From the NCBI GenBank assembly GCA_012862575.1, contig BLSF01000009.1, forward strand, positions 248,001 through 312,000: 64,000 bases of DNA, written 5' to 3'. The translations under genes were made by a program, and so were the position numbers. The notes beneath the pieces are model-generated. The model did not search any database and was not told the DNA's origin. It was given only the letters and a program-made list of their open reading frames with translations. Numbering within the stretch: the first letter of the stretch is position 1; each line of letters opens with the position of its first letter. Below, one piece after another: positions 7,779 to 32,018 of the stretch. The DNA comes from Parietichytrium sp. I65-24A (Eukaryota > Sar > Bigyra > Thraustochytrida > Thraustochytriidae).

Positions 7779-9300
7779 CTAAGCATCTGACTCCGTTGCG
7801 CACATCTTGGAAGTCGCTATGGTAGACATGATGCTTGCTTCTGCTGCAGACGACTCCGTGTACCAATACCCATGACACACATCATGATAATAATCTATGA
7901 TTCCGCTGCCCATTTTGTTTGGAGAAAAGCACCATATCTTTGCTTTGGGAAATCTCTCCATGAGCAACTTGTGCTCATTAACTGCTAGGTTCTTCGACTT
8001 CGACTTGGTCCTCCCTTTCACGTTCGGTTCACCGTCGCTTATCAAAATCAAAGACAGTCCTTTACCCGTGTCTGCATCAAATTTCGCTTTCTTCGGGCGC
8101 TTTGTCGCGAGCCCCCGCACGAACGCGAATACCTCGTTATGTGCAGTGAAAGCATGTGTTTTCAAACGCCTTCCCAGGGCGTTTTGTAGCACAGTCTGAT
8201 CGACCGCTCGGTCATCGTCAAAAGGAATCCAGTCGTAAATCTTTCCCGCAAATTGATAGAGCCCAAATCGAAGTGAATCGCTTTTATTAGCGTACACAAA
8301 GGAGTCTTCGATGATAGTTTGCGCGAATTCTCGCTGTGCCTCTTGCTCCTCTGCTCCTATCGATTTTGATACATCGACGAACAAGACGACGTCTTGCGTG
8401 CAGTTTTCAACAAGGGTCTGTATCAGAACATTTACAGTCGGCGCTTTTGTTGGACTCGTAGGAGGCTCCGTTGTCTGATATCGAAGGGGAAGGGGAGGAG
8501 GAGAAGGAATAGTCAGATCTACCGTGCTCAAGCTCAACTTGCAAAGCTAGTGTGTGGCTCCGGGCCAATCCAAATAAACTTACTGGCGAATTGGTAGGTG
8601 CGTTTGTTGGAGGTGCACTTGTCGGCGACAATGAAGGGGCGTATGATGGTGCCAGAGTCGGGTGCATGGTCGGCAACTTTGTCGGGCTCGATGATGGAGA
8701 ATTCGTGGGCGAGCGCGTTGGGGAGTTGGTGGGGCTCAAAGTAGGTGACCAAGTGGGTGCTTTCGTTGGCGAGTGGCTCGGCGAGCTCGTCGGGTGTATG
8801 GTAGGGGATAGGGTCGGGAGATGTGTTGGTGAAATTGTTGGCGAGTGTGTCGGACTATAGGATGGAGAGCGAGTCGGCCCAATCGTCGGCGAAGGCGTTG
8901 GACTTTCACTTGGCGATATCGTTGGAGATATGGTGGGCATCAACGATGGTGCAGCTGACGGTGCGCTGGTCGGAAGACTTGTTGGCGACAGCGTCGGCTC
9001 GACAGTGATCGGTGCGTGCGTTGGCCATGACGTGGGAACTTGTGTCGGCGATGGGGTTGGAGACGCTGTGGTGAGACTGCTCTCAAGCGTACTCTCCGTA
9101 GGATCTTCTGGCTGCGCTGAACTCTGCAATGTTGTCGCCAATACCGCGGCAATGACTCCAGCAACAAGAAGCCCAGTGAGAAACAACTTGCCAGCCTTCG
9201 CCCCGTAAGCTGCTCCTTCGCTGTAGGCGTTTCGAGGCGGATCATCTGCAACAGGCGCCGTGAGCCCACCCGCAACCAAGTCCAGGCGCGCGTCCGGCAT
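7779..9300 (-). CDS. Type II membrane protein: SPT-repeat stalk plus vWA domain, two exons
   Basis: Predicted cell-surface protein of 470 residues (exons 9300-8584 and 8474-7779, phase 0). A cytosolic tail of about 35 residues is followed by one hydrophobic segment at about 36-58 (LFLTGLLVAGVIAAVLATTL). Then comes a stalk at about 75-245 built of dozens of tetrapeptides of the type SPTx/xPTx, likely O-glycosylated. The C-terminal von Willebrand A domain (about 265-460) has the metal-site motif DVSKS (Asp273, Ser275, Ser277) and a later SDGEPN strand. SPT stalks are common in stramenopile surface proteins, and vWA domains usually bind protein ligands; adhesion is therefore an inference. The tail contains LDLVAGGL, also present in the esterase-like protein at 22140-24251. 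It diverges from the 749-residue gene with 490 nt between starts. Confidence 0.82.
8475..8583 (-). other. Intron of the vWA surface-protein gene (109 nt)
   Basis: On the minus strand the donor is GTAAGT directly after the last SPT-type codons, and the acceptor is ATATCAG. Splicing continues the Pro/Thr stalk in frame (TNSP joined to TTEPP) into the vWA domain. Both halves read further into the intron only as low-quality sequence. Confidence 0.88.
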
Positions 9301-12088: not shown

Positions 12089-15000
12089 TCAATCATGCCC
12101 TCCTCCAAAATCAGCGTTTCTCAGTCTTGTGCGCACGGAGTCCAGAGAAGCAAGCATTTCCCTTTGCTCACGCTCTAGCTGCCGAAGCTCTTCGGAAGGA
12201 GAGATACGATACCTCGGGTCATAAAAGTCCGTCGGGCCAGTCATGTAATCAGGCGAAAGATGAAGATCACGTCGTGAGCTTGTGCTAGGGCCGCTTCTCA
12301 TGCTCCCACTATCAAAGTAGTCCGTTCTTACATCGGCATGCGAGACAAGATTTGTCAATCCCGGTGCTTGATATTCCTGATCCAACTCTGCAACGTCATA
12401 GTTCTCTACAAGTCTTCTCACCTCAAGGTCTACCTCGACTGCCGCTTTAAGCTTTTTCTCAAGAAGATCAATCTTTTCATTGGCTTTCTTCAGCTCCTCG
12501 GAGTTGCTTTCATCGCTCTTCTTTGAATGCCGCTTGACTGCGGAGAGATATTCCTCAATCTCCCTCTGAGACTGCAGAAGCGAGACGTTCTCCTCACGTA
12601 GATGATCTCGCTCGGCAGCTACATCTTCAAGTTCAAGAGAGAGCGTCTGTCCAGTTCTCTTCCACAAAAGCATAGTCGAGATGGCTTCGCTCAATGCTGA
12701 AAGTACCGTGTTGCACATGTCCAGGTACGCATAGTCGTACTGCTCCACGCTCGAGTCAAAGTACTTGGTAGCCTGCAAGAGGCCCGCAACTCGTTCAGAT
12801 GCATCGAATATTGGAATGCAAATGAATGCTAGCACATGCCCACGCCCCCTTTCTGAAGCATAGGTTGACTCGCCGTGAGGAGAATACTCATGCTGCTGTT
12901 GCTCAGAAACAGGAAGAGAATACCTCCTTGCTGCACTTACTATGTGACTGGATGAATTGCTAACCGTCAACGTGAAGCGACTGGCTCTTGAAGTACCAAA
13001 TTGGTCTCTCACACTGTGAAGAGCGACGGTAGAGTCAATTTCAGGGCTAAAGCGAGGGTCTTGAGAAGCATTATGAACAGCAATTGGTTGGCCAGTTCGC
13101 GCTACGTAAGCAGTAAGCCCTGGACCCAGCAAAGCGTGTTCGAGACGTTTCCTGCCGTCGGAGGCATATTCACTGACCAGCTCATGACAAACCTCAAAGA
13201 TTCTGACGCTGTCCGATTGAAAAAGTTCATGAGAGCTCTGTTGGAGACTGATCTGTAGCTGGCCCCAATCCTTTGGCTCAGCTAAAGGTACAAGTGCTCC
13301 AGTGTTGTGGTGTATGTGTTGCCCTCCACTCCTGGGCCGCACAGGATGAAGCTTGCTTCGACCTCCAAGCGTGCCGTATATCGTCCTAGCAGAAGCGAGG
13401 CTAGCCGAGTCCGAAACCGGAGCGCCAGGCAAGTCCAGATTCTCAAGAAGACTTGGCTGAAATGGCAACGCGTTGCAAACCATTGTGACCATGGCTCTTC
13501 GAATCTGCTCCACAATACCTTTCTTGTCCGCGAATCGCAGAGCATCAGCGCTCTGTGCCAGAGTTGCGAGCTTCCATTGAGTGAGAGCTGGGATCAAGGC
13601 TCTGTGCCTGATCCTATTCACGTAAAGGAACAGAGTCCGAGCAGCTGTAAGCTGCATGAATTGTGCATCTCGAACTCGCCTCCAGCGATGAAAACACCTT
13701 GAGAGAGTTTGCCCGGCCCATTTCTGTAGACAAGCCGTTGCGATCACTTCATTGCGCTCGTTGCGTACAGAGCGTTGCGTGTCCATCGCGATAACATGTA
13801 GCCACGTTCTAAACGCCATAGCTTGCCCCGCAAGTCTCCATCTAATAAGAAGTGATCGAATTGCCTTCTTTCTGCGACTTACCTGTGCAACATAGCTCGC
13901 CCACGTACGCAAAGCCTTTGCCTTCAGTCTATCCTTCCAGCGGGACGCAACTAAGATTTGCGTTCGCCGTTTGCTAATGAGTTGCTGCGTCCCTGCTCTC
14001 CACATCCAAAAATATCGTGCCGCAAGTGGGCCCTGCCACGCCGCAACAAATTTTCGAGCACATTGTTGTTGCAGACGAGCATTTACTTGTCTGAGCATTT
14101 GCCTGTCGCCATAAGCGACTAAGGCGTCATACTGCGACTGCTCCAGGTGCGCACCGGAGATCGCCTGCTTCCAGGTCAGCCAAGCCCTCGAAACCTGCTT
14201 GTTCGTCAACCTACCCATTGTACGAGCAAGAAGATTGAGTCCAAACCATTTCTTGTCGGTTCGTGAAATAAAAACCCTCCAGGCGTTCCAGGCTGAGGCA
14301 AGTGCACGATAGTGCATCCGGCTTAAGCACCCCTTGAGTCGAAGCGACCTTCGCGCGGATAGCGCTGAAACTTCACGCCATGCTGTAAAACATTGTGACA
14401 TTGCTGCAGAAGCGGACCGCATCAGGAATTTGTCTAATTTGAGTCTCTGTACTTTGTGTCGCACAACCCACACGCGCCAAAGTCGAAATGCCTGCTCGAT
14501 GCGCCTAAATTTGAGGTTTAGAATGACTTTGTCCGCATACTTTTCTCGAACTTCGTTTCTGTGTTGTTGAAGAGAAATGAGTTGCTCTCCAAAAACTTTT
14601 TCCGCCCCCTTCTGATCCCACTCAAGCTGCCCTATTTTCTCTTTGAGACGGTCAATTTCCAACTTTGCACTCTCAAGTAGCTCTGAATCAGAGTGCCGGA
14701 CAAACCACGACCATTTTGCCCACGCCGCACTCAAATTTTTGCGAACGAGCCTGCCAAGGACACGGTTTGCGACTATTCTGAAGTTCTGCCTCTCGCAGAC
14801 ATTACTTGCCCAGGTGTCAAACACAATGGCAAGTGAACGGCTTCTCCATCGCTGAAGAAACTTTGAGACGGTAATTCGGTGTATGCGTGCCTCCAACGCG
14901 TATTCCTGCCACGCTGCAAAGGCTCTCGTAAGAAGCCCCTTGGAGAATCTTGCAATGACTCTGGCAGTGATTTGCTGGGAGGAGTTCATTTCCTCACGTT

Positions 15001-18000
15001 CAGCCCGAGAGTCGTTTGTGAACTCGATCCACTGGTCAAAGTAGTAGCCAAGGGAGTCGGGTATGATTTGAGCAAAGACTTTTCTAGCGCGGCGTTTCTT
15101 GTCGACGCACTCACGCGAGAAAACCTTCCAAGCAGCAAAGCATCTGAACACTGTCATTTTGGTCTTCTCCCGAAATAAAATGCCCATTTTTGCCCGTTTG
15201 GCTTGCATTTCTCGTGTGGTGCTACTCCACCCTCTGAATGCTGAGGCAAGTTTGACGTTAGCTAATTGAGCGGCATACCGTTCCATCACCGTCCGAGTGT
15301 GCTTTGACTGAGAGGTAAAATCACGCCAGGCACTGAAGGCTCGTACGGTTGTCCTGCTTTTAAAACGGGCCGCATATCTTCGTAACAAGCGCTGATTGGA
15401 GATCTTTCGTTGCGAAAACAGCTGCCACTGTCTAAAGACGTCTTTACAGGTTCTCTCATTGGACGCGCTATTGATTGTGCGTGCAAGTTTAATCAAAATT
15501 CGGTCTCGCTGGGAGAACAGCTTCTTCATCTCATTTTCAAATCGCACAGAAAGAGCAATGTGATCCTCCTTGAGCGTCTCAATTTGTTGAGCAAATTCTT
15601 GCGCTTGGTATCGAGCATAATTGTAAGACACCAGATGCCATTGTCGAAAGGCAGCGCGCTTTTTCTTGAGTTCAGAGTTCTCAAAAATTGTTACGAGGAA
15701 GCTTCTCAAAAACTTGCGACTTGCGGCATACTCGTTCCAAGAGCGAAAAAACGCTGCCATTTTTCGATTCATCCACTGAGCAGCAAATTTGCCCATGACA
15801 ACTCTCTGGTGTCGTAGAGCGATAATGTTAGTTTTGAAAGCGTGGAACACCTTTGCTAGCTGCCGATTCCGCCACATTTTGATTACTCGATCAGCATGGA
15901 CCTGCTGAGCATTCGTACAGTCCGCCGTCAATTCTTGGACCTCGCCCTCCAGCTTGACACGAAGCATATCTCTCTCGTTGGAGATATCTTCAAGTCTTTG
16001 CTTCAGAAGAGCACGCTCTTCATGGTAGACTTGAAGCTCGTCTCTAATACTTGATGCTGTCGCAGAGCGGAACTTCCCAAAAGCAAGTTGTAAATCGTAT
16101 TGACCAGACGAACGGCTGAGGCGGGTGAATAATGAGCGAAGGTATTTACGCCGGGACGCAAAATCATCCCAGCTCTGAAAGGCAAGAGAAAGCTGCCTAT
16201 TCTTCCATCGAGATGCAAAACGCGCCAGAATCGAACTTTCTCTGTTTTCTTGATCCTCTAGCCGCCCCCTCTCCTCCTTCGCCCCTTGGACGAGATGCTT
16301 CCACTGCTGAAATCTGCCGCTGAGGGTATTGGCGCACACACTTCGCCAGATTCGACCAGACTTTTGTTTGAATAAAAGCTTTTCCCTCGCGTAGTTTTTC
16401 CATGCATCGAAAGTCAGACTCAGCTGAATAGAGCGAAACCTTGCAGCCGCACGGAGAACTTTGGAACGATTTCGCCTCCTTTCAATGGTTATCTCTTGCC
16501 AAGCGAAGAAGGCCATGCTTTGCGCTCGCTTGCTTATTATTGAGAGGTGACGCGCCAGAAGCTGTTTATGTTTCCTGTGTGTGCATGCACTTGAGCGCCA
16601 CCAACCGAAGAAATAGGAAGCTCTCTCCATTCTCTTGCTTTGGACTGCACTTGCCCAGCTTCGAAAAACTAATAACAAAATGGTGCCTTGCCACTTCATG
16701 ACAGATTTAGAAGTAAGCGACCGCAGTCTTCCCTTCTCGGCTTTCAGTGTGTCTAGCGCAAGCGCAGCAGCGGCTTCGAGCCGCTGATTCGAGTCTGTAA
16801 GAAGTTCAGCTACGTTCGCCGAGAGTGAGCTTCGCCATGTGTAAAAAGCCTTTGAGAGTGAGCGGAAGAGGAAGCGCGAAACGAGACCAGACAAAACACG
16901 GCGAAGTGACATTCGCTGACCAACATAGTCCTTCCACGTATCAAACGCGGCACTTTGCGCCCTGTACCTAATCCTGGACAACAAGTGCGAAGATTTGTTC
17001 CAGGCCATCCTCCTTCTCTGGTAGGTATTCTTCCATTCCAAAAAGTGAAGAATTAAATGCCGACGTCGCATTCGTGCAACAGCAAGCTTGACAATTGTGT
17101 CTCTCCGATCTCTGGCGCTCTTCTCCTTCATCGTGAGCGCAGCAGTAGCTCGCTCTTCATCAACTCGGCGCGACCACGTATACCATGCGGTGGCCAGTTG
17201 CTTTTTCTGCAAACGCTGAACAGCCCGAAGCATGAACTTCAGCCCGGCTCTTCGAGATACATTGAGAGCCGTTTGTTGCTCTTTAAGCGTATTTGAAAGC
17301 GACACAATCTCGCCGTTGAGATGATCGCGTTCCTGATTCGTATCATCCACTACCTTCCTCATATTATCGAGAGAGGTCTTTTCTTTTGCAAGCCAGTCCG
17401 CCTTCCATTGCCTCAGCTCAGAAGTCTCAGTTTTCTCCGTATCAATCTGGGCCTCGAGTCGCTCCTTCTCTTTTTCTAATTCTTCAACGCGCTTGCGCAA
17501 AAGTTCCAGCTCCTTCTTCTCCTCGGGGCCTATCTGAGCATCATGATCGGACTCTGGCCCGTTCCCGTTTCGCGAGAGCATATGAGAACTCCACTCTAAC
17601 CTATCTTCCTCGTCAATTCCAAGCAGTTCGGCACATCGCCTCTCAGAGGCATGAAGCGCTGTTCTTAGAGATCTATTTTCTGCCACAGCCCTCGAATATG
17701 CCCTGTGTAAGCTCGCGACTGCTAATGCTGACCGCCAGTTTTGACCTAAATTAGACCCGCCCCCTCTCAGCCCATGCTCTTCCCATTCATTCGAAGCATA
17801 ATCTTCGAGCGACTCCTCCCCAGAGTCTCCAGAAAGCTCTTCAATATCGAGAGACCGCCCCCTTCGGTTTCCCCCGCCATGCGCCATGTGCCGTGAACCC
17901 TGGAATTCCCCACGGCGCGAACCATCTCTGACGCTGTTCTCGTGCATGGCGTCATAACTCTGAACACCATCGTCCAACGAGAACTTTCTTCCGGGACTCT

Positions 18001-18340
18001 GCCTTCTGGGCGAGCTTCGAGGCGAGAGCGTGGCAACTACATCGTCGCTAGCAACGCTGACCGACCCGTCCTTGAACACTCTCACTCTCGCAGCAGCCGC
18101 GGATGGAAACGACACGGAAAACGCTCTCTCCGAAGCTGCCGGCCACGAGTCCCATTCTTCCCCGTCCTCAATTTCGTCGCCTTCACCAGCAAAATTCAGG
18201 TTCCCAACGCCCCGATCACCCAATAACACACCCGGCCGGGCTCTCTCGATCGCAGATCGATTCAAACGAAGCCGGTCCAATCGAGGTTGCGTCGGAGCTT
18301 CTGCTATCGGCCCATCCTCCTTCCGTTCGCGCTCCGTCAT
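12089..18340 (-). CDS. Giant Sfi1-repeat protein with C-terminal GAF domain
   Basis: Predicted centriole/basal-body scaffold of 2,083 residues, starting at an ATG. After a low-complexity N-terminus and a coiled coil (about 270-350), about 30 repeats run from about 385 to 1585. Each has the pattern A-F-x-x-W with basic residues, spaced mostly 30-40 residues apart (AFSAWRDF, AFRGWSS, AFAAWQEY, AFRLWRVW). This is the centrin-binding repeat of Sfi1. A GAF-like domain at about 1710-1895 (GPGLTAYVARTGQPIAVHNA, then VLAFICIPIFD) follows, then a coiled coil at about 1900-1957 and a Ser-rich tail. Sfi1 arrays bind centrin and set the length of spindle-pole or basal-body structures; that role here is inferred. 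Yeast Sfi1 has no GAF domain, so this architecture is unusual. Confidence 0.85.
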   Translation of the reverse strand: MTERERKEDGPIAEAPTQPRLDRLRLNRSAIERARPGVLLGDRGVGNLNFAGEGDEIEDGEEWDSWPAASERAFSVSFPSAAAARVRVFKDGSVSVASDDVVATLSPRSSPRRQSPGRKFSLDDGVQSYDAMHENSVRDGSRRGEFQGSRHMAHGGGNRRGRSLDIEELSGDSGEESLEDYASNEWEEHGLRGGGSNLGQNWRSALAVASLHRAYSRAVAENRSLRTALHASERRCAELLGIDEEDRLEWSSHMLSRNGNGPESDHDAQIGPEEKKELELLRKRVEELEKEKERLEAQIDTEKTETSELRQWKADWLAKEKTSLDNMRKVVDDTNQERDHLNGEIVSLSNTLKEQQTALNVSRRAGLKFMLRAVQRLQKKQLATAWYTWSRRVDEERATAALTMKEKSARDRRDTIVKLAVARMRRRHLILHFLEWKNTYQRRRMAWNKSSHLLSRIRYRAQSAAFDTWKDYVGQRMSLRRVLSGLVSRFLFRSLSKAFYTWRSSLSANVAELLTDSNQRLEAAAALALDTLKAEKGRLRSLTSKSVMKWQGTILLLVFRSWASAVQSKRMERASYFFGWWRSSACTHRKHKQLLARHLSIISKRAQSMAFFAWQEITIERRRNRSKVLRAAARFRSIQLSLTFDAWKNYAREKLLFKQKSGRIWRSVCANTLSGRFQQWKHLVQGAKEERGRLEDQENRESSILARFASRWKNRQLSLAFQSWDDFASRRKYLRSLFTRLSRSSGQYDLQLAFGKFRSATASSIRDELQVYHEERALLKQRLEDISNERDMLRVKLEGEVQELTADCTNAQQVHADRVIKMWRNRQLAKVFHAFKTNIIALRHQRVVMGKFAAQWMNRKMAAFFRSWNEYAASRKFLRSFLVTIFENSELKKKRAAFRQWHLVSYNYARYQAQEFAQQIETLKEDHIALSVRFENEMKKLFSQRDRILIKLARTINSASNERTCKDVFRQWQLFSQRKISNQRLLRRYAARFKSRTTVRAFSAWRDFTSQSKHTRTVMERYAAQLANVKLASAFRGWSSTTREMQAKRAKMGILFREKTKMTVFRCFAAWKVFSRECVDKKRRARKVFAQIIPDSLGYYFDQWIEFTNDSRAEREEMNSSQQITARVIARFSKGLLTRAFAAWQEYALEARIHRITVSKFLQRWRSRSLAIVFDTWASNVCERQNFRIVANRVLGRLVRKNLSAAWAKWSWFVRHSDSELLESAKLEIDRLKEKIGQLEWDQKGAEKVFGEQLISLQQHRNEVREKYADKVILNLKFRRIEQAFRLWRVWVVRHKVQRLKLDKFLMRSASAAMSQCFTAWREVSALSARRSLRLKGCLSRMHYRALASAWNAWRVFISRTDKKWFGLNLLARTMGRLTNKQVSRAWLTWKQAISGAHLEQSQYDALVAYGDRQMLRQVNARLQQQCARKFVAAWQGPLAARYFWMWRAGTQQLISKRRTQILVASRWKDRLKAKALRTWASYVAQVSRRKKAIRSLLIRWRLAGQAMAFRTWLHVIAMDTQRSVRNERNEVIATACLQKWAGQTLSRCFHRWRRVRDAQFMQLTAARTLFLYVNRIRHRALIPALTQWKLATLAQSADALRFADKKGIVEQIRRAMVTMVCNALPFQPSLLENLDLPGAPVSDSASLASARTIYGTLGGRSKLHPVRPRSGGQHIHHNTGALVPLAEPKDWGQLQISLQQSSHELFQSDSVRIFEVCHELVSEYASDGRKRLEHALLGPGLTAYVARTGQPIAVHNASQDPRFSPEIDSTVALHSVRDQFGTSRASRFTLTVSNSSSHIVSAARRYSLPVSEQQQHEYSPHGESTYASERGRGHVLAFICIPIFDASERVAGLLQATKYFDSSVEQYDYAYLDMCNTVLSALSEAISTMLLWKRTGQTLSLELEDVAAERDHLREENVSLLQSQREIEEYLSAVKRHSKKSDESNSEELKKANEKIDLLEKKLKAAVEVDLEVRRLVENYDVAELDQEYQAPGLTNLVSHADVRTDYFDSGSMRSGPSTSSRRDLHLSPDYMTGPTDFYDPRYRISPSEELRQLEREQREMLASLDSVRTRLRNADFGGGHD

Positions 18341-25592: not shown

Positions 25593-27101
25593 ATGCGGGA
25601 CATGCGGGATGGCACGAATGGATTGTACTCTGGACCACAGAGTCCAGGGGTGCTGGACTTTGATGCAATCGAGGCCGTACTGCGGGAAAAGGGGCTGCTG
25701 AAGGAGATCAATCGGACGTTCAACCTGATTGCCATTCCCTTGCTGATTGTAGCGGTTCTCGGAGTGGGGTTTATACTTGTGTGGGCTCATGAGATCCTGG
25801 TGCCCTTTGTAATTGCATTGTTTTTCACGTATTTGCTAAAGCCGATGGTGAACGCGTTGAGCCAACCGCTTGGGTCTTGCACAGAAGCGAATTGCCTCAA
25901 CTTTTTCAATCCAAATGCTTGTAGGCGACGGCATACATCTGCCGGGTATACTCCAGCTGCCACTACGAGGAAGGACTCCTCAGGTGCGTTAAGCGCCGCG
26001 TTCGGTGAGGCGGGGGTTTCGTTTGACGACGAAGGTGCTTCAGCAAGTGGAATGAAGAGCGAAGTTGAACTCTCTAGCCTGATTGATGGAGTATCGACCC
26101 AGAGTGAAGCTAGCCTGCCAGGAAGGGTCCCGCGGATCTCGGTCAGCCCTCCAAGTACCCAGCAAAACTTTTGCTTTCGCTGCCGGCATTGGAAGCTTCC
26201 TCGATGGTTCTCCATCCTCCTCTCTATGATACTTGTGTTTGGGTTCTTTGCGGGCGTCGTGATTCTCATCGCTGATGCCGTCCAGACTTTTGAGGACGAA
26301 GACATTGAACTCTTTGAAGAGCAGATGGTGGACCTCGGGTTCAAGCTCAAGGGCTGGATGAAGAAGGTGTTTGGAATTGAGCTAAAGTCACTGATGGACC
26401 AATTTCGTGCCGAATTTCACTGGGTTTCACTCACCAAAACTCTGGTGCTTGCGGTGCTCAATGGTTTGGAGTACGCGTTCATCATATTTCTGTTCGTGAT
26501 GTACATGCTGTTTGAGGATTCTGATCTTACGACGATACATGAAGCCAATCTGAGTCGCTCCCACACCCGCGCGCGCGATTTGCGTCGTCAAATTGACGTT
26601 CAAATTCAGCGATACATTGTGATCAAAACCCTCATCTCCTTGGTAGTCGGAGTATCCGTGTACATTGTTCTCGGTCCTCTACTTGGCGTGAAAATGGCCC
26701 ACATTTTTGGAGTCATTACATTTTTCGCCAACTTTATCCCGAACGTGGGCGCCATGCTCGCAACCATCGTCCCGATTCCAATGATAGTCCTCGACCCTGG
26801 ACAAACCACCATATCTGCAATCCTCGCGATCGCACTCCCTGTTTTCATTCACTCTGTGGTCGGAAATGTAATCGAGCCAAAGATATTCGGAGACACCATG
26901 GAGCTTCACCCGGTGGTCGTGCTGATTTCTCTCTCGTTTTGGTACACGGTTTGGGGTATGGCTGGCGCGATTCTGTCCGTTCCGATTACTGCCGTTCTAC
27001 GTATTGCGCTGTCACACATCAAGCACCCATATGCGGTAGTCATGCTACATTTGCTGGAGGGCAAACTGCCAGGTTCAAGAGCGTTCCACGCGAAAGGCTG
27101 A
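25593..27101 (+). CDS. AI-2E/PerM/TMEM245-family multi-pass membrane protein
   Basis: Membrane protein of 502 residues from the first in-frame ATG. Two N-terminal spans at about 42-89 (LIAIPLLIVAVLGVGFILVW, then VPFVIALFFTYLL) are followed by a hydrophilic loop of about 100 residues, Ser-rich and with a CxxC. Then come further spans and the family's conserved C-terminal half: VIVLGPLLGVK-like, FFANFIPNVGAMLATIVPIP, VIEPKIFGDTMELHPVVVLISLSFW. Bacterial relatives export small molecules or act as antiporters; the eukaryotic member TMEM245 is uncharacterised, so the substrate is unknown. The start is uncertain: the frame is open without ATG back to 25371, and two short upstream ATG frames lie at about 25038 and 25099. 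It converges with the KEN/D-box gene downstream. Confidence 0.85.
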   Translation: MRDMRDGTNGLYSGPQSPGVLDFDAIEAVLREKGLLKEINRTFNLIAIPLLIVAVLGVGFILVWAHEILVPFVIALFFTYLLKPMVNALSQPLGSCTEANCLNFFNPNACRRRHTSAGYTPAATTRKDSSGALSAAFGEAGVSFDDEGASASGMKSEVELSSLIDGVSTQSEASLPGRVPRISVSPPSTQQNFCFRCRHWKLPRWFSILLSMILVFGFFAGVVILIADAVQTFEDEDIELFEEQMVDLGFKLKGWMKKVFGIELKSLMDQFRAEFHWVSLTKTLVLAVLNGLEYAFIIFLFVMYMLFEDSDLTTIHEANLSRSHTRARDLRRQIDVQIQRYIVIKTLISLVVGVSVYIVLGPLLGVKMAHIFGVITFFANFIPNVGAMLATIVPIPMIVLDPGQTTISAILAIALPVFIHSVVGNVIEPKIFGDTMELHPVVVLISLSFWYTVWGMAGAILSVPITAVLRIALSHIKHPYAVVMLHLLEGKLPGSRAFHAKG

Positions 27102-27584: not shown

Positions 27585-28268
27585 TCAAAATTGAAAATCA
27601 TCGTCGTCTTCGTCCATGGAGAGCGCTGGCCCGCGGAGTAGCTTCAAATACTCTGCTTTTTGACTGGTTGCTCCGAGGGCAAAGTGCTCCAGCGAATTAC
27701 CCCCAAGCCCACTCTGCATGTCATCTGCGTCGTCGTTACTGACAAAGAAGGACTTATAATCAGACGATGCCGCTAAAGGCGCGCAGTTGAGAAGCACTTC
27801 GTTTTGGTCACGGGGTCTGTGCGATAGTATGGACTTGAGATTGAAATCAATCTTCGGCTGCGGGCTTGCGGAAAGCGGGCGCCGATTACAAGTGTCAAAG
27901 AGATCGTCATCAAAGTCAATCTCGTCGTCAGCGCTTGGGTGCAATGACCCCGTCGCCAGCGCCGGACCAGGGTCCTGGTAGACCAATTTGGATTTGAGTG
28001 GCTGGCCAGGGGTCTTCTTGTTCGCAAGAAGCCGCGATCCAGTAGCTTGACCCTTTTGCTTTGCGTCCTGCGCGCTGCTCCCGGGCCTGTTGTTTGAAAT
28101 ATCTCCTAACGCCTTTCGCCCCGTCCTCGCCCCGCTTTTAGCGCCTCCAAGTTTGAGCTTTGGCCCTTCCTTCAAACGGCTTCCTTCGGCCTTTTTCCTT
28201 TGTGAAATCCCTGCCACATTCTCCTTGTGGTCCACAAACACCCCTGGGTCGCCTCTGTACACCTCCAT
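27585..28268 (-). CDS. Disordered KEN-box/D-box protein, securin candidate
   Basis: A 227-residue, largely disordered protein starting at an ATG. It carries a KEN box at residues 15-17 in VFVDHKENVAG and a destruction box at 51-59, RKALGDISN. These are the two degrons read by the anaphase-promoting complex. Their order, the N-terminal VDxKEN context and RKALG match human securin (VDKENG, RKALGTVN) and also plant PATRONUS (ARKALNDITN). A basic middle part is followed by acidic aromatic patches (DDEIDFDDDLFDT at 114-126, and a C-terminal MDEDDDDFQF), reminiscent of the acidic separase-binding half of securins. Small cell-cycle regulators such as sororin or shugoshin also carry such boxes, so securin is an inference. 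There is no folded domain. Confidence 0.7.
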   Translation of the reverse strand: MEVYRGDPGVFVDHKENVAGISQRKKAEGSRLKEGPKLKLGGAKSGARTGRKALGDISNNRPGSSAQDAKQKGQATGSRLLANKKTPGQPLKSKLVYQDPGPALATGSLHPSADDEIDFDDDLFDTCNRRPLSASPQPKIDFNLKSILSHRPRDQNEVLLNCAPLAASSDYKSFFVSNDDADDMQSGLGGNSLEHFALGATSQKAEYLKLLRGPALSMDEDDDDFQF

Positions 28269-29862: not shown

Positions 29863-32018
29863 TTAACCCGCACTCGTCCTTTCACTTCCCCAAGCACGTA
29901 TACGGCTTCGCAAGTGACCAAGTGAGGCAGATGCTAAGACAACTTCTCCAACGCTGCGCAAAAACGCAGACATATCAGTTCTTGTCTGCTTGATGTGTTT
30001 CCCCGTTGCCTCAAGCATTATTTCTCCTACTTCCGCATAGCCTTCCTCGCAATGGTTGTCTTCGTCAAGGATAAGTTCGCCTATTTGACAACGTACCTCT
30101 ACCAGGTCCGTCTCAAGGGCACAACTCTGAAGACGAACCTTCAGCACGTCCAGCTGTGCCGCCCCAAGTGTCAGCACGTTGGAGATGAAAGCCCCCACCC
30201 ATAGCCCGCAGGAGGTCAAGTCCTTTTGGGGATGATTATTGGGATCAAAGAGTTCATGAAAAGACCAGTCCCCTTCGAGAGCTCGCCGAAAGACGTCAAA
30301 CCGCTCATCCATTACAAAACCAAGTGAATCCACGCCAAGGCCTTGTTTCCGAGAAAAGTCAAGTATCACCAAACTCCAGTGATTACGCTCTTCCTTCTTT
30401 CCAACTCTAGCGCAACTGCTGTGCACTGGAACAAGTATCAAATCGTTCCCGTCGTGCGCCAGCGCCTGTAATCGATCATAGACTGGGGGCTCGTTCACCA
30501 GATCCGCCCATACAAAGCACCCAGCACACGCCACTCGCGACATGTTTTGCTTTTCTTGGAGCAAAAAGTTGTATGCATCTAGAACATCGCCGTGCAGGTA
30601 CATCTCACTCTGCAATGTGGAGATGCTTTGTTGCACGTCTGGGACTTTTGAGATTAGCCACCACTTCTGCTATCTTCGAATTTTTCGAAAATGTGTTACA
30701 GACGAAAATGTCCGTTTTTCTCTTTGATTTAAGAAAAGCAGCTTGTAATGCCTTCAGAGAAGTATCTGAAATCACTTCTTTTGACTGACACAACCACGAG
30801 AAGACATGGCAAAAACGCCCATAGTCTTCTTCCCTTCCCCCAATAGAGGTTTTCGACGCGAGTTTCACATTCTCTGCAAGGCCACTTTGAAGCGCAACTA
30901 TCCCAGCCCACCGTGACTCAAGCTTCACTTTCGCGAGGAAGTCCTCAGTGGTGGTATTTGAAAGCACTTGCTCTTCCATTTTGATCTGCAGCGCATTGGC
31001 TTTGTCTTGCTCTCCAGCGGCAGTGAGTTTCGCGATCTTAGGCAAGGCCTTTGTGGGGCTGACAGGCGCGCAATGAAGCATTTTATGTTGGAGAGACATG
31101 AACTCCCGAAGTTCTGCCGCAGCGTTAGAGTGTGGAAGTGCTGCTTTGGTAAGATGCGGCATAAGGCTGATGAGAAAACTTCGTCGGACAGGATGACTAC
31201 GAACTCTGCGCACTTCTTTCATGTGAGTCATAACCTCTTCGCGGAGAGGAGAGCACATCTCGTGCGCAATATCTAGGAGCCCAGCCACGTATTCCTGTTC
31301 GGCAATGGCTCGGTCAGCAGGCGCCGTGCGTAGCCCAAAACCAGTCGAATGGATATGGTAGCCGCCATCAGTTTCGACGGTTTTCAATTTACGCAAGAAT
31401 CGATCAAGTGCCAAAAAACGCCTCCAACTCTTCCTCCTTCTCAAACTCCAACATTGTGTAGGTGCCCATGTCCATCGAATAGAAGCTTCTCGTCTCATTG
31501 TTCTCTTGAATATACTCGTTCAAGTCGAAGGACCACTTCTCCAGCTCAGCATTGTAACTGCCCGGCTCATAAACAGAGTCGAGGTTTATGGCACAAGCTC
31601 GGTTGGATTTGTCTGAATTGCGTACCTCGCCATCTCCAGAGGCCAAGTCGCTTTCATACCCTACACTATTCTCCTCGTCTTGTGAATTCTCGTGAACATC
31701 ATCCGGAGCTTCGTAAGCCTGCAAGAAGTTGGGGTATTCGGACTCCCGCAAAATCTTCGCAGTAGCGTCAGTCAGCGACTCAAGTCGCGTGCTTATATAC
31801 CCGGATTTTGAGACAACTTCAGTTTTGCCTTGCCTGGCTTCACCCGAAGGTGCGCCTGTGAAATGCGACCAGCCCTTCGCCGACAAATTTGCTTTCAAAG
31901 CTTCTCGCGACGCTCCTACCTCACATTTGAAATGGGCGCCACGAAAAACTGCTTTACCGTTTAAGTGAAGCTCATCAACCGCATCAGCAAGATCGGAAGC
32001 ACAGCCTCGCCGTTCCAT
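29863..32018 (-). CDS. Ulp1/C48-type SUMO protease-like gene, frame interrupted twice
   Basis: Probable cysteine protease that processes SUMO or NEDD8-like tags. Three overlapping minus-strand frames abut: 32018-31404 (starts ATG), 31498-30605 and 30636-29863. The last carries the peptidase: EMYLHGDVLDAYNFLL (the usual substrate-binding start), NHWSLVILDF with the catalytic His, GLGVDSLG with the Asp, and QKDLTSCGLW with the oxyanion Gln and nucleophile Cys. The frame changes fall at homopolymers, six A at 31413-31418 and four T at 30646-30649 on the plus strand, each as if one base were extra. No GT-AG intron explains them. They may be assembly errors, a young pseudogene, or frameshifting. 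The N-terminal two thirds resemble nothing I know. Confidence 0.65.

Follow-up and report, generated by a model that had tools for sequence, protein, structure and literature searches.

According to passages of three papers (PMC6858450, PMC12609080, PMC10317155), separase cleaves its substrates at [D/E/S]ΦExxR, and human securin, which carries the pseudosubstrate EIEKFFP together with an LPE motif, binds separase in antiparallel orientation as an extended chain. Two docking motifs are described in these passages, LPE/VPE, located C-terminally of the pseudosubstrate in vertebrates and some lower eukaryotes (PMC6858450), and NxLxΦE, reported for human securin (PMC10317155). According to a 2011 phylogenomic survey, securins occur in animals and fungi alone, and securin was not placed in the last common ancestor (PMC3195147). 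Here, we analyzed a 64,000-nucleotide stretch of the thraustochytrid Parietichytrium sp. I65-24A (hereafter the window), focusing on an open reading frame (ORF) for a 227-residue protein that an initial annotation had put forward as a candidate stramenopile securin. Plant PATRONUS was reportedly described as a securin in 2019, and no paper on a stramenopile securin appeared among the titles and opening lines of abstracts listed in the literature searches, subscription journals lying mostly outside these searches. Judged from its sequence, the ORF more probably than otherwise encodes the organism's securin or a securin-like protein.

Two degrons point to an APC/C substrate

The initial annotation had reported a KEN box in the context VDHKEN and a destruction box (D-box), RKALGDISN, and both were confirmed in the minus-strand translation at the residues given (Table 1). 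The two degrons lie in the N-terminal third of the ORF, with the KEN box preceding the D-box, which is the order of human securin. Of 20,000 residue shuffles, 3.1% contained a KEN tripeptide and 0.36% had one among residues 1-30; no shuffle (0/20,000) produced a strong D-box. Given that the analytic expectation for such a D-box in a protein of this composition is 2.6e-6, the ORF very probably encodes a substrate of the anaphase-promoting complex/cyclosome (APC/C). This part of the earlier interpretation is well supported by the two degrons, the shuffle statistics and a pattern scan of the genome.

In that scan, a narrow degenerate DNA pattern of the D-box had three matches in 42,540,916 bases, compared to two for the reversed control. 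Two of the three matches start with Arg, namely the candidate securin ORF and a cyclin B (L025) that contains Cyclin_N and Cyclin_C and whose D-box, RSALGDISN, equals RKALGDISN except at one free position. The third match opens with a Ser codon and is located opposite an ORF of 234 residues. An RxALxD[IV]xN box is present in 2 of the 20 Cyclin_N matches of the genome (L004, L005). A second cyclin D-box, RRALHDVTN, falls outside the narrow pattern, and a further cyclin (L009) reads RQALMDRER, without the [IV]xN end. Because the narrow pattern misses L005, the three matches do not make these the sole D-box proteins.

Apparent disorder, charge order and a putative pseudosubstrate

The 227-residue protein had no match in Pfam or NCBIfam (E ≤ 1 each) or in the Protein Data Bank (PDB; E ≤ 10). 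A single-sequence AlphaFold2 model was of low confidence throughout, with a mean predicted local distance difference test (pLDDT) score of 48 and four short helices. A low pLDDT obtained from a single sequence fits disorder, and a poorly modelled fold would give the same value; the protein is probably intrinsically disordered. A folded domain, or membership of an unrelated family such as sororin or shugoshin, had been named at the outset as a reason to give up the securin assignment, and Pfam, PDB, NCBIfam and AlphaFold2 revealed neither.

Charge counts bore out the claimed basic middle and acidic, aromatic C-terminus, the net charge being +6 for residues 61-105, -6 for 106-135, 0 for 136-170 and -8, with seven aromatics, for 171-227. 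The resulting order is similar to that of human securin (+6, +6, -6, 0, -8 for the ORF vs +5, +9, -8, -7). Within the acidic segment, the tripeptide EID opens a proposed pseudosubstrate (Table 1) and starts at 51% of the ORF length, compared to 56% for human EIE, 50% for worm DIE and 69% for yeast DIE. This relative position is the one expected for a securin pseudosubstrate. The only strict motif match, SLEHFA, is a less likely pseudosubstrate than EIDFDD, because just 30 residues remain after it. Securin is the best identity for the ORF because the protein is small, shows no domain, yields a low-confidence model as expected for disorder, shares the charge order of the human protein and contains the EID tripeptide.

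Table 1. Positions in the window of the candidate securin ORF and its sequence features.
Feature	Residues	Window positions	Strand	Basis
Candidate securin ORF, 227 residues, stop codon included		27585..28268	minus	open frame and codon usage
KEN box (VDHKEN)	15-17	28218..28226	minus	sequence and shuffle frequency
D-box RKALGDISN	51-59	28092..28118 (G000:C9:276092-276118)	minus	sequence, genome pattern scan, shuffles
Basic middle, net charge +6	61-105	27954..28088	minus	charge count
EIDFDD, proposed pseudosubstrate	116-121	27906..27923	minus	cf. human EIEKFF, yeast DIEIAP, worm DIEDDM (passages of PMC6858450, PMC12609080)
SLEHFA, sole strict [DES]-hydrophobic-E-x-x-nonR match	192-197	27678..27695	minus	motif scan
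Acidic, aromatic C-terminal region, net charge -8, ending DEDDDDFQF	171-227	27588..27758	minus	charge count

Separase, Rad21 and a proposed mechanism

One separase gene was found in the genome, defined by two Peptidase_C50 matches within one open frame (L027, G000:C31:426500-434500). In the PDB comparison (E 4.9e-38), the separase sequences YCGHGSG and LIGCSS fall on the catalytic motifs of the human enzyme, placing the catalytic dyad at His1717 and Cys1744, numbered from TTG. The organism therefore has a protease that would call for an inhibitor. A further securin gene may exist elsewhere in the genome. The N-terminal domain is only partly contained in the Rad21 ORF (L030, G000:C44:107000-111500), which has the conserved C-terminal region; positions 1-47 of the N-terminal profile match just upstream of the ORF, which points to a probable intron. 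Among five ExxR sequences in Rad21, two read IEVAR in similar contexts, at residues 194-199 (EIEVAR) and 510-515 (QIEVAR), and an RRSSA stretch comes after each. These two IEVAR sites are likely the separase cleavage sites of Rad21; the expression used also allowed Gln at P6, and the strict form is matched by the first site (EIEVAR) alone.

We infer degradation, separase binding, inhibition and the Rad21 cleavage sites, and the steps would connect as follows. The disordered candidate securin would bind separase in extended form: an acidic pseudosubstrate that cannot be cleaved, for which E116-I-D-F-D-D is the best candidate, would sit in the active-site groove, and the acidic and aromatic C-terminus would run along the helical part of the enzyme. 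At metaphase, APC/C-Cdc20 would recognize both degrons near the N-terminus, the candidate securin would be ubiquitinated and destroyed, and the released separase would cut Rad21 at the IEVAR sites.

Separately, the separase ORF contains a SAP domain (PF02037, E 1.9e-9) at residues 1543-1577, directly before the C-terminal protease part. This domain might tether separase to chromatin; a literature search for a SAP domain in separase returned nothing on separase by title. The 500 bases upstream of the candidate securin ORF gave no signal for two sequence motifs, AACGG occurring once and GGCGC not at all (window averages 0.77 and 1.05), and AACGG was likewise absent from the upstream sequences of the cyclin B and separase genes.

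Weighing the securin assignment

Several results weigh against the assignment as a securin. The alignment of the ORF to human securin was marginal (local p 0.029, global p 0.029) and gave p 0.22 locally and 0.034 globally when the degrons were masked, while the C-terminal part reached only p 0.24 (local) and 0.64 (global). The N-terminus of cyclin B from the same genome, used as a control, scored comparably against human securin (local p 0.064, global p 0.036), indicating that these marginal p values are unspecific. Moreover, the ORF was not similar to worm IFY-1 (p 0.57 and 0.26). It aligned best with the N-terminus of the genome's cyclin B (local p 0.0045, global p 0.008), where the similarity lay chiefly near the D-box. 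With alignments this marginal and unspecific, common ancestry with known securins is not established. A search of the 42.5-Mb, 172-contig genome with the 227-residue protein returned only the protein itself at E ≤ 0.001, and no orthologue was found in viral contigs (11 pattern stretches, 0 confirmed) or prokaryote contigs (76, 0 confirmed); the evidence comes from a single species. The Pfam Securin model was unmatched in the whole genome, this ORF included, and the Sororin_middle model was unmatched genome-wide; the 14 control genomes were equally silent for both, and nothing follows from either search.

The motifs expected at the separase interface add further points on this side. P4 of the proposed pseudosubstrate EIDFDD is Asp instead of Glu, and in shuffles of residues 60-227 the expression [DE]I[DE] occurred in 6.8% and the looser [DES][ILVM][DE] in 69%. 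Neither LPE/VPE (searched as [LIV]PE) nor NxLxΦE was present in the 227-residue ORF. By the same expressions, worm IFY-1 also lacks both motifs, and NxLxΦE was unmatched in yeast Pds1 as well. LPE/VPE is therefore not universal among securins, given its absence from the worm protein, and neither is NxLxΦE, given its absence from the worm and yeast proteins. Taken as a whole, the original proposal is partly supported, its securin part drawing on the layout, the charge, the apparent disorder and one tripeptide that weakly resembles a pseudosubstrate.

Only the degrons depart strongly from randomness in this ORF, and they would also suit a different or lineage-specific APC/C substrate, for instance a regulator of the spindle, of chromatin or of cohesion, with an acidic C-terminus that binds a partner other than separase. 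The missing docking motifs and the lack of significant similarity between the C-terminal part and human securin also argue for such a protein. However, small size, the absence of a detectable domain, and the order of parts and charge profile found in securins speak against it, and most other known APC/C substrates carry a domain that Pfam would detect. We consider this alternative unlikely, while taking it seriously.

APC/C pseudosubstrate inhibitors, as exemplified by yeast Acm1 and fission yeast Mes1, offer another explanation for a small protein, modelled as disordered, with a KEN box and a high-quality D-box: the two degrons would block Cdc20/Cdh1, and the protein itself would not be destroyed. 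Numerous lysines near the degrons and downstream of them could, however, accept ubiquitin, the acidic C-terminal half would be left without a role, and the protein has no Pfam match and ends in DDFQF, unlike Emi1-type inhibitors with their LR/MR tail. An inhibitor of this kind is thus improbable. Sororin and shugoshin are fast-evolving APC/C substrates, and a cohesion regulator of either type would share this property with the ORF; the lack of a Pfam match at E ≤ 1, of an FGF motif (the sororin motif) and of a confident helix in the AlphaFold2 model make it highly improbable.

Gene model and neighborhood

The initial annotation gave the correct coordinates and protein length, and the coding strand is the minus strand (28268→27585), where a single frame is open from ATG; the plus strand of 27585-28268 has seven stops. 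Upstream of the ATG (start context ACAATGG), 31 codons are open before a stop is reached. The ORF frame had a codon-usage score of 0.209 bits per codon, compared to -0.057, 0.022, 0.084, -0.018 and -0.09 for the other five frames, and the 11 window ORFs behind the codon table, which were afterwards scored with the table built from them, ranged from 0.108 to 0.372. The downstream neighbor, a convergent ORF for an AI-2E family transporter, ends at 27101, 483 bases away.

Codon usage alone does not prove the gene, since four ORFs lying antisense to other genes also score high (0.187-0.301), some of them matching the score of the ORF. Nevertheless, that the ORF is no gene, being a chance frame or one exon of a longer gene, is the most improbable explanation of all: a strong D-box is expected in just 2.6e-6 of shuffled proteins, the frame is favored by codon usage, start context and upstream stop, the 483 bases to the convergent neighbor are too short for a cyclin box plus introns, and the longest open minus-strand stretch between 28269 and 29862 (at least 40 codons being scored) spans 75 codons, upstream exons still being possible.

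Other observations in the window and the genome

The window contains long uninterrupted ORFs. On its minus strand, a 2083-residue ORF (12089-18340) contains many W-containing repeats, which by eye we take to resemble SFI1, and a GAF match scoring under the curated threshold; another ORF (8407-9300) has a long PT repeat (PF04886). Three adjacent, overlapping minus-strand ORFs at 29863-32018 had no Pfam match at E ≤ 1. One of them resembles a Ulp1-type protease by eye, and the three are possibly the remains of a mobile element.

Elsewhere in the genome, a 5583-codon open frame (G000:C66:8562-22499) is matched four times by one segment of the PfaA model (about positions 176-516) and likely encodes a large synthase for polyketides or fatty acids. 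The omega-3 PfaA model gave 13 matches, all below the cut-off (best 143.8 of 1010.1 bits), and below-cut-off matches also occurred in 11 of the 14 control genomes. These weak matches do not identify the organism as a thraustochytrid with a PUFA synthase, and the LABY-A primer sequence had no exact match. A genome search for a light-harvesting protein found none, so the organism looks non-photosynthetic. This absence, the long ORFs of the window and the PT repeat fit a heterotrophic stramenopile, a plausible assignment that they do not prove.

Implications and comparison with known securins

One implication would be that the ORF encodes a true securin of a heterotrophic protist outside animals, fungi and plants and that it descends from a common ancestor with the animal securins and PATRONUS of plants, which would place securin, like separase, in the last common eukaryotic ancestor; this securin would have Asp at P4, no LPE dock and a partner separase with an inserted SAP domain. 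We regard this scenario as tentative, with the chances somewhat against it. A candidate securin in another lineage, accompanied by separase and predicted Rad21 cleavage sites, allows a direct test of how old securin is.

Among the proteins compared, the organism's own cyclin B has a similar D-box, RSALGDISN, set in a basic N-terminal stretch, and differs by its Cyclin_N and Cyclin_C domains, the ORF having neither. A B-type cyclin was also considered as an identity for the ORF and rejected, as the 227-residue protein contains no cyclin box (Pfam, E ≤ 1). Plant PATRONUS1 (PANS1) has the D-box RKALNDITN, and DEN where the ORF has KEN. Yeast Pds1 and worm IFY-1 are separase inhibitors with an acid-Ile-Glu motif. 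Pds1 (PDB 5u1s_B, residues 258-373) carries DIEIAP at the start of the crystallized segment; it is longer than the ORF and contains VPE. In worm IFY-1 (5mz6_B), which has no KEN box and no overall similarity to the ORF, DIEDDML at 121 compares with EIDFDDDLF at 116 of the ORF, and DIEDDM would represent the worm pseudosubstrate.

Human securin (PTTG1; PDB 7nj1_B) differs from the ORF in its LPE (130) and NPLDFE (121) docking motifs, both missing from the ORF, in the Asp at P4 of the ORF and in a C-terminal part without significant similarity. The human comparison made at the outset was accurate, as VDKEN lies at 7-11 and RKALGTVN at 61-68 of the PDB sequence. Both proteins thus have a KEN box (9-11 in human) and an RKAL D-box near the N-terminus, a basic-then-acidic charge order and an acid-Ile-acid motif in mid-protein.
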